Positions 22,451-34,111 of a stretch of DNA of 64,000 bases are shown one piece after another (position 1 is the stretch's first letter; each line of letters opens with the position of its first letter). Where the stretch lies: positions 141,667-205,666 of the forward strand of contig JAJPIO010000006.1 of the NCBI GenBank assembly GCA_021324735.1, given 5' to 3'. Origin of the DNA: Bacteroidota bacterium (GTDB lineage Bacteria; Bacteroidota; Ignavibacteria; Palsa-1295). A program made the translations under genes and the position numbers. Under the pieces are notes generated by a model that did not search any database, was not told the DNA's origin, and was given only the letters and a program-made list of their open reading frames with translations.

Positions 22451-25372
<2,922 letters not shown>

Positions 25373-25690
25373 GTCTTGGTAAAACCGGAATGTGTGTAGC
25401 CGCTCATTCGATGCGGATCATGGAGCACCGCGGGCGAAAACCGGCACCTTGTACGCAAAAGTGCTATGAAAAGTTTTGAAAATCAAAAAGGCTGAGAATC
25501 GCCTGATTTGACAAGCTTTTATAAGGGGTCGAAACGAATTTCACGCCTCCCGGCTTTTTTGTATTATATTAGTAGTGTCCTCGGGCTTTAGTCCCACTGG
25601 AGAGAAAACGAAGTCGCTAAAGATTTATAAAAAAATTGGATGCAGCCACTTGCATTTTGGTCTTTCGTGTATTAAATTGTAACTATCACT
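25373..25690. other. Gene-free region upstream of gcvP
   Basis: This holds the upstream region of gcvP (reverse strand) and an AT-rich segment (TATTATATTAG at 25562-25572) that could include forward promoter elements. No gene, riboswitch or strong terminator was seen. Confidence 0.35.
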
Positions 25691-25693
25691 AAA

Positions 25694-25985
25694 TATCGGC
25701 AAATGCCGGAAACCAACCCGAATTTGCGGGCTGTTATCCGGGCAACCTGATGAAGCAAAGTTCATCCGGTGTTCTAAAGAATTGACAACTGATTTTATAG
25801 CCAGACTGGCGACCAGACAAGACGCATGAGCTTGAATGGTCACGGTTCGAAGCTAACCTGAGTTGCCCTGCTGACCACAGGGCATATTGAACGAGAGGGG
25901 CGCTTCGGAGGTCGCGTGATGTTTCACTAAAGGGAGGACCAATTCTCTCACCACACACGATGACGCCGAAGCGCTTTTTATTTTA
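25694..25985 (+). ncRNA. Candidate structured noncoding RNA of unknown family
   Basis: No ORF of good quality, but a string of short hairpins reads in one direction. CGGC-AAAT-GCCG is at 25697-25708. CCCG/CGGG surrounds 25720. ACC(T)GATGAA with TTCATC(C)GGT is at 25745-25769. TGCCCTG-CTGACCA-CAGGGCA is at 25864-25884. Last comes a large closing hairpin GCGCTTCGG...CCGAAGCGC (from about 25900 to 25975), followed by TTTTTATTTT like a terminator. Motifs of RNase P, tmRNA and SRP RNA are absent. 6S RNA cannot be excluded. Boundaries and even existence are uncertain. Confidence 0.35.
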
Positions 25986-26117
25986 AAGTGCTGACTTCTA
26001 AGTATTGAGTGGTTCGAACTCAACGCCTTGCATTAAAGTTATACGGCCCGCTTATCTGGGTTTCCCGATTTATCACTCGGACCAAGCACTCAGCACTTAG
26101 AACTAAGCACTGGCAAT

Positions 26118-26192
<75 letters not shown>

Positions 26193-26302: not shown

Positions 26303-26929
26303 TTATTTTGTCGATTGTCGGTCCGGATTTTCCCGATCCTGATCGCTCATAGGAGTATCCGCCGGTTGATCCGTCTTAAAGCCTAACCGCCGTCCGTATG
26401 CATCGTACCATTGGTTTACGGCCGCATAATTATTCAGATTACTCTGCTCGTAGTATGAATAGGAAATATCCGATTGATTGATGAAGTTTGGATCGAGCAC
26501 ATGTAATAAGAGAGCCGTCGAGCGATAGACCTTCCAATGATCGCCGGTTAACGCCGCTTTTGGCTCCTGAAAGGATACGATCCAATCCGCACCGGCATTG
26601 CGAGCAAATTTTTCGAGCGCCGGAACGACGTCTTCTTCGTTTTCAAATTGAAGAGCGATCGTGCCAATTACAATGGCACTGCGCGGCATGATCGAATCCG
26701 GCATCGGCTCATGATAAACAAACTTGATCGTATCGTTCGTCTTCGGAAGGTCGAACGGCGTAAGCCGGTTTACAATGACGGAATCCCGACCACTTGCTTT
26801 CATGACCTGACGAGCGCTATGCGATGGCATCGACTGGAAATACTGTGCGGTACCGATCTCGGGAAGGCATCCGAGGGCGGCCAGAAGGATGGCAAACGAA
26901 GTTAGTGATCTGAACTTAAGAATCTTCAT
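26303..26929 (-). CDS. Exported protein of unknown function
   Basis: 208 residues. The N-terminus is a signal peptide (KFRSLTSFAILLAALGCLPE), cut either near GTAQ or, less likely, as a lipoprotein at Cys21. The middle carries an ADWIVSFQEPKAALTGDHW segment after a helix (EEDVVPALEKFARNAGADW), a pattern resembling small proteins that test a stress-like alpha/beta fold; no family was recognised. The C-terminus is polar (DQDRENPDRQSTK). It stands alone between tRNA-Pro and the hydroxy-acid dehydrogenase. Confidence 0.65.
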   Translation of the reverse strand: MKILKFRSLTSFAILLAALGCLPEIGTAQYFQSMPSHSARQVMKASGRDSVIVNRLTPFDLPKTNDTIKFVYHEPMPDSIMPRSAIVIGTIALQFENEEDVVPALEKFARNAGADWIVSFQEPKAALTGDHWKVYRSTALLLHVLDPNFINQSDISYSYYEQSNLNNYAAVNQWYDAYGRRLGFKTDQPADTPMSDQDRENPDRQSTK

Positions 26930-33156: not shown

Positions 33157-33382
33157 CCTGGGGCTTGCGCCGCCAGGCTAAGTCCTTTCGTCGCTCCGCG
33201 ACTTTCCTGCTGCGAAGCAGCTATGAGAACTTGCGATCCCGACTAAGACCTTTCGTCGCTCTGCAACCTACTGCTGCGGAGCACCTATGAGGACTTAGCC
33301 TCAGGCGCAAGCCCCAGGTATGAGGATTAGCCGGGGGCGCAGGCCCCAGGTTTTAGGATTAGCCTCGGGCGCAAGCGCGAGG
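33157..33382. repeat. Array of short inverted repeats left of the transposase
   Basis: Several related modules: CCTGGGGCTTGCGCC (33157) against GGCGCAAGCCCCAGG (about 33303-33317), CCTTTCGTCGCTCCGCGAC (and a variant about 65 bases on), and CTGCTGCGAAGCAGCTATGA (again twice). They end in GGATTAGCC-type units with GGGGGCGCAGGCCCC and CGGGCGCAAGCGCGAGG. These look like REP/BIME modules of the kind mobilised by the adjacent REP-associated transposase. Confidence 0.75.
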
Positions 33383-33900: not shown

Positions 33901-34111
33901 CCTCGGGCTTACGCCCGAGGCTAAATCCTCATAGCTGCTCCGCAGCAGTATGTCGCGGAGCGATGAAAGTCGCAAACCTGGAGGATTTGTTGAGCCAACG
34001 CTAGATTATCATAGCTGCTTCGCAGCGGTGAAGTCGCGGAGCGACGAAAGGATTTAGCCTGGGTCGCAAGACCCAGGATGAGGATTTAGCCCTGGCCTCA
34101 AAACCCCGGGA
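33901..34111. repeat. Array of short inverted repeats right of the transposase
   Basis: A perfect hairpin CCTCGGGC-TTAC-GCCCGAGG (33901-33920) begins 4 bases after the stop codon. Then come CATAGCTGCTCCGCAGCAG and GTCGCGGAGCGATGAAAG, both repeated, and GGATTTAGCCTGGGTCGCAA. Several are reverse complements of modules in the left array (for example GTCGCGGAGCGACGAAAG), so the arrays face each other across the gene. The rest of the gap, 34112-34204, shows nothing else. Confidence 0.75.

Follow-up and report, generated by a model that had tools for sequence, protein, structure and literature searches.

On the plus strand between gcvP and a tRNA-Pro(CGG) gene of a Bacteroidota bacterium is a locus that is, on balance, likely to be a stand-alone gene for a structured non-coding RNA, specific to one bacterial family and acting in trans, most plausibly as an RNA–protein particle. 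The locus belongs to a stretch of 64,000 nucleotides (contig JAJPIO010000006.1), referred to here as the window, in which gcvP occupies 22451–25372 on the minus strand and the tRNA gene 26118–26192. A preliminary description of the sequence had noted a gene-free block of about 290 bases here and suggested a possible novel RNA. The block, 25694–25985 (+), is indeed the body of the RNA gene, and the suggestion is supported by conservation, covariation, promoter-like boxes, a terminator and the lack of a match in Rfam. The true feature is slightly larger than this block, with promoter-like boxes from 25565 on.

Anatomy of the RNA

The gene comprises the following features, all on the plus strand.

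25565–25572, +, distal promoter-like −7 box, TATATTAG; TATATTTG in relatives
25649–25680, +, proximal promoter-like pair, CTTGC (25649–25653) and TAAATTGT (25673–25680), based on alignment
25709–25736, +, 5′ module GAAACC ... GGCTGTTA, conserved alignment columns in the genus and, partly, in the relative G009
25782–25796, +, conserved segment TTGACAACTGATTTT, unpaired in the consensus fold and nearly invariant in the eight sequences of the genus plus G009
25798–25855, +, variable hairpin V, closed by TAGC/GCTA in most members
25864–25884, +, hairpin H1, 7–8 bp with loop CTGACCA, arms pairing in eight of eight sequences despite sequence change
25896–25982, +, core 3′ domain of stems P1 and P2, hairpin P3 and a conserved loop, described by covariance model R1
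25899–25908 with 25966–25975, +, stem P1, 10 bp, invariant
25911–25922 with 25953–25964, +, stem P2, with sequence changes among members
25932–25949, +, hairpin P3, within the core
within 25896–25982, +, conserved core loop GTTTCAC..AGGGAGGACC
25975–25984, +, T-rich run after P1, an intrinsic terminator by sequence, T-rich in 11 of 11 genomes

The plus strand of the block folds at −100.5 kcal/mol (z −4.24), a value equalled in none of 200 shuffles. Its stems had been described as lying in one orientation; the minus strand is stable too (z −3.56), and the orientation is given by the T-run at the end of the RNA, which is found on the plus strand only, and by the plus strand folding better than the minus in all 11 genomes that carry the RNA. 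The long closing hairpin with its T-run, also part of the preliminary description, is confirmed, with a z of −5.23 for 25895–25985 alone in the window and of −3.01, −1.33 and −2.69 in three relatives. A simple terminator scan of the window reported none at the end of the RNA because the loop of this hairpin is longer than the scan allows.

Across four genera the core is very conserved, with 81–93% identity over 25896–25982. The sister genera (G007, G008 and G011) lack the long 5′ part, in which the alignment of the genus and G009 has the conserved segments GAAACC, GGCTGTTA, GATGAACG and TTGAAAACTGATTTT, with TATTGAACGAG preceding the core. The fold of the 5′ module is inconsistent between members. 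Hairpin V (z −1.7 to −3.9) varies in length and sequence in the same alignment; it is one closed hairpin in seven of the eight sequences and splits into two small ones in G009. A long-range pairing of 25733–25746 with 25862–25875 was rejected, as inspection by eye shows that the relatives do not keep it. Likewise dropped was a possible resemblance of ACGAGAGG to the sarcin-ricin loop of 23S rRNA, as the sister genera lack ACGAGAGG in the alignment.

Compensatory changes in three helices

Covariation in aligned relatives, which the preliminary description had proposed as a check, is found in helices P2, H1 and V: the three hairpins go on pairing while their sequences change. The evidence comes from an arm-swap test, in which the energy of pairing between a sequence's own left and right arms is compared with that of swapped arms over 20,000 permutations. 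For P2 (11 sequences) own arms gave −8.92 and swapped arms −6.65, with one permutation as good; for H1 (eight sequences) the values were −11.94 and −8.44, with 21 as good, and for V (eight sequences) −19.79 and −13.35, with one as good, all from a small set in which the relatedness of the sequences inflates the significance of such permutations. At 16 control placements downstream the test gave no signal (p 0.056–0.91). Own arms were the best partner of all in just 4 of 11 sequences for P2 and 2 of 8 for V. On a MAFFT alignment the signal is weaker: of 500 shuffles, 17 matched the covariation score and 50 the number of pairs with changes in both partners. Stem P1 is uninformative here, since it never varies.

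Promoter-like boxes and transcript ends

In relatives the promoter-like boxes stand out better than they do in the window. In the alignment of the window's genus the distal box reads TATTATATTTG and the proximal pair CTTGC ... TAAATTAG-like. Located 5′ of the RNA and on its strand in six of the seven genus members, the window genome included, is TATTATATT, for which the seventh (G003) has TGTTATATTCG in the alignment; TATTATATT[TA]G is single-copy in the whole window. CTTGC is present at the equal position in six of the seven, again with the window among them, and absent from G004. The window's proximal pair rests on alignment, as a strict promoter box scan of the window gave no match. Every fixed letter of TTTG-N19/20-TAnnTTTG is present in the sister-genus genomes G007, G008 and G011, 53–69 bases 5′ of the core, an arrangement that fits the Bacteroides promoter consensus quoted in a passage of PMC7366714.

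Transcription is predicted to run from about 25687 (proximal pair) or about 25579 (distal box) to about 25980, giving an RNA of some 295–400 nt in the window. In the sister genera, the missing 5′ part and the position of the promoter just before the core point to an RNA of about 130 nt.

Distribution

The RNA was found in the window bacterium's own family only, in draws of 391 genomes of the class and 395 of the phylum. Model R1, a covariance model built on the core 3′ domain, matched 11 of the 391 class genomes, all of them members of the family (13 genomes in the set) and the same 11 that formed its training set, with one match per genome; the two family genomes without a match are G010, which is 67% complete, and G012, which is in 430 contigs. 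In the phylum draw five genomes matched, of which two are family members with a full match, and the other three matched in the outer stem only, an ordinary short hairpin with a T-run, and were set aside.

Searching DNA of 61 genomes with the whole 745-base intergenic stretch matched 25843–25987 or part of it in ten relatives at 81–93% identity, with the flanks mostly unaligned; the only class match outside the family, 33 bases in G048 (E 4e-4), was taken as chance. A loop-pattern scan of genome contigs returned 19 stretches, eight on contigs of family members and the remaining 11 rejected with R1 scores of at most 16.5 bits, and in viral contigs it returned a single stretch without an R1 match. 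The plasmids and phages searched contained no match to the RNA.

Probable mode of action

As a folded molecule, the RNA would act in trans. Its 3′ domain is conserved from genus to genus in its stems too, which implies strong selection and makes a function in the core of the cell plausible. The invariant 10-bp terminator stem and the loop GTTTCAC...AGGGAGGACCAA...CTCTCACC form a putative protein-binding site. As this is the simplest reading of an invariant stem and loop, the likeliest mechanism would be an RNA–protein particle through which a protein is sequestered or recruited, much as RNA polymerase or other regulators are bound by RNAs confined to particular lineages.

Protein-sequestering RNAs include those of the CsrB/RsmY type. 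As in these, the core of the studied RNA has a GGA in its loop region, but there is no series of GGA hairpins. A CsrB-like sponge was rejected, and CsrA is an unlikely partner, because CsrA was found in none of the 13 family genomes. A fitting precedent, by analogy, is provided by the RNA-polymerase-binding Ms1 and CoRP of Actinobacteria, which are also lineage-limited structured RNAs, although their hosts are distant from this family. Passages of PMC11077062 give Ms1 as about 300 nt and place homologues of CoRP only in Corynebacterium, among tRNA genes. A literature search, judged by title and the start of the abstract, found no work on such RNAs in this lineage.

Possible, though not the reading we prefer, is a trans-acting base-pairing sRNA, in which the unpaired TTGACAACTGATTTT, the CTGACCA loop and GACCAA/CTCTCACC would serve as seeds for several mRNAs. 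Long conserved unpaired segments suit this role, and passages of PMC7366714 describe related Bacteroides as rich in sRNAs and lacking an obvious Hfq or ProQ; the core, however, has a strong fold in which stems and loops alike are conserved, and the 5′ segments are absent from the sister genera. In our judgment, the conservation of both stem sequence and loop across genera would favour protein binding over pure base pairing. More doubtful is a bolder proposal, in which the RNA would be abundant and belong to a new class of housekeeping type, its invariant 3′ domain binding a central machine, either RNA polymerase or the ribosome, and regulating it by an undescribed mechanism; if true, a housekeeping-type RNA would be kept in this family beside 6S, SRP, tmRNA and RNase P RNA.

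Independence from the neighbouring genes

As far as can be read from sequence, the cassette keeps its own promoter-like boxes and terminator while its neighbours change order. The window and seven relatives have tRNA-Pro(CGG) on the strand of the RNA, about 170–270 bases beyond the point where the core starts; in G005 it precedes the RNA and is encoded on the other strand, and it was not found in the scanned stretches of G004 and G006. The gcvP gene is upstream and divergent in the window, and G001 and G002 have the same arrangement at a distance of several kb. In G004, G005 and G006 it follows the RNA on the same strand, and in G003 it lies past the tRNA; it was not seen in the scanned stretch of the other four genomes. 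The order and orientation of the RNA relative to gcvP, tRNA-Pro and the gene at 26303–26929 differ between genomes, which argues against a cis leader. The promoter-like boxes keep their place 5′ of the RNA through these rearrangements, and the distal box does so also when the cassette is turned round with respect to gcvP.

The same arrangement makes it improbable that the locus merely supplies a neighbouring gene with its terminator or untranslated region. The RNA does end in an intrinsic terminator, as such a reading has it, but the upstream neighbour varies between genomes and is divergent in the window, and conservation and covariation reach well 5′ of the terminator stem. Very unlikely too is an element acting at the level of DNA, for example a short mobile or recombination cassette that local inversion has turned round: its varying orientation relative to gcvP and tRNA-Pro and the inverted repeat directly downstream would fit, but there is one match per genome and none in plasmids or phages, and the compensatory changes and the T-run speak for an RNA.

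Among close relatives, the RNA, tRNA-Pro(CGG), gcvP and the gene at 26303–26929, which encodes 208 amino acids, are shuffled by small inversions (loci L071–L080). Between the terminator of the RNA and tRNA-Pro are the two arms of a 28-nt inverted repeat (25987–26014 and 26084–26111; 82% complementary), which is perhaps a REP-like element; pieces similar to it (positions ~707–744 of the intergenic query) occur elsewhere in G001, G004, G005 and G006.

Relation to known RNAs and coding potential

Rfam 15 has no family matching the block at gathering level, and the low-threshold search that the preliminary description had recommended, taken to E values of up to 10, gave no convincing family in the window or at the loci of ten relatives. 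DdR11 on the window (E 2.7) and sraA, weev_FSE, mir-301 and Six3os1 on relatives (E 2.4 to 8.8) were regarded as chance matches. The studied RNA resembles Chlorobi-1, Bacteroidales-1, Flavo-1 and Acido-Lenti-1, given in passages of the 2010 survey PMC2864571, in being a comparative-genomics motif of a particular clade, but none of these, as represented in Rfam 15, matches it. It thus represents a well-supported RNA family that Rfam 15 does not contain. The models of SRP RNA, tmRNA and RNase P RNA have no match at the locus, in agreement with the preliminary description, and all three genes lie elsewhere in the window genome, that of SRP RNA on contig C13 and the other two on contig C15.

A divergent 6S RNA, as the preliminary description had proposed, or a second 6S copy is highly improbable. 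Like 6S RNA (RF00013, RF01685), the studied RNA is bacterial, structured, encoded on its own and a few hundred bases long, with a terminator, and neither Rfam model has a match in the 13 family genomes, RF00013 having none in the window genome among them. RF00013 detects 6S in 5 of 149 class genomes, none of the family. From these five sequences we built model R2. Outside the family it recovers 6S from 24 of 26 class genomes (E ≤4e-5; one of them, G019, is a training sequence), with an E value of 0.96 in G018 and no match in G037; inside it, two members, G009 and G010, have weak matches. The wider model R3, trained on 12 sequences including those of G009 and G010, finds 6S in 5 of the 13 family genomes, of which G008 (1.5e-14), G007 (7.7e-12) and G003 of the window's genus (2.7e-7) are independent matches. 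The conserved blocks of class 6S are present in all five in alignments and in three of the five by a stricter motif script.

G003, G007, G008 and G009 carry both a 6S RNA and the studied RNA, on different contigs; the studied RNA is therefore not the 6S of those genomes, and the reading is refuted for it as their only 6S. At the RNA locus itself R2 with filters off gives 6.6 bits (25894–25981) and R3 at most −0.8 bits on the core, neither notable. Moreover, single-sequence and consensus folds place the 5′ and 3′ ends of the studied RNA in different hairpins, in contrast to 6S RNA; the ends are not paired together and there is no central bubble. In the window genome R3 did not locate a 6S, yielding only a chance-like 31-base match (E 0.69).

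A short protein-coding gene is scarcely credible: minus-strand ORFs of 72, 74 and 56 amino acids do exist, and tblastn with the 74-residue ORF returns fragments of 30–36 residues in at least four relatives, but these fragments are explained by the RNA being conserved at the DNA level, the frames in relatives are broken by stops and by indels not in threes, and the paired changes are RNA-like.

As a by-product, the class-specific models reveal 6S RNAs of this class that RF00013 mostly misses (loci L081–L085 and L087–L117); that of G003 has a long insertion in its terminal part. Acido-Lenti-1 RNAs (RF01687) are described from Acidobacteria and Lentisphaerae in a passage of PMC2864571. Two of them lie in the window, at 34032–34077 (−) and 33157–33203 (+), with 52.7 and 40.9 bits, and thus in a genome on the Bacteroidota side.
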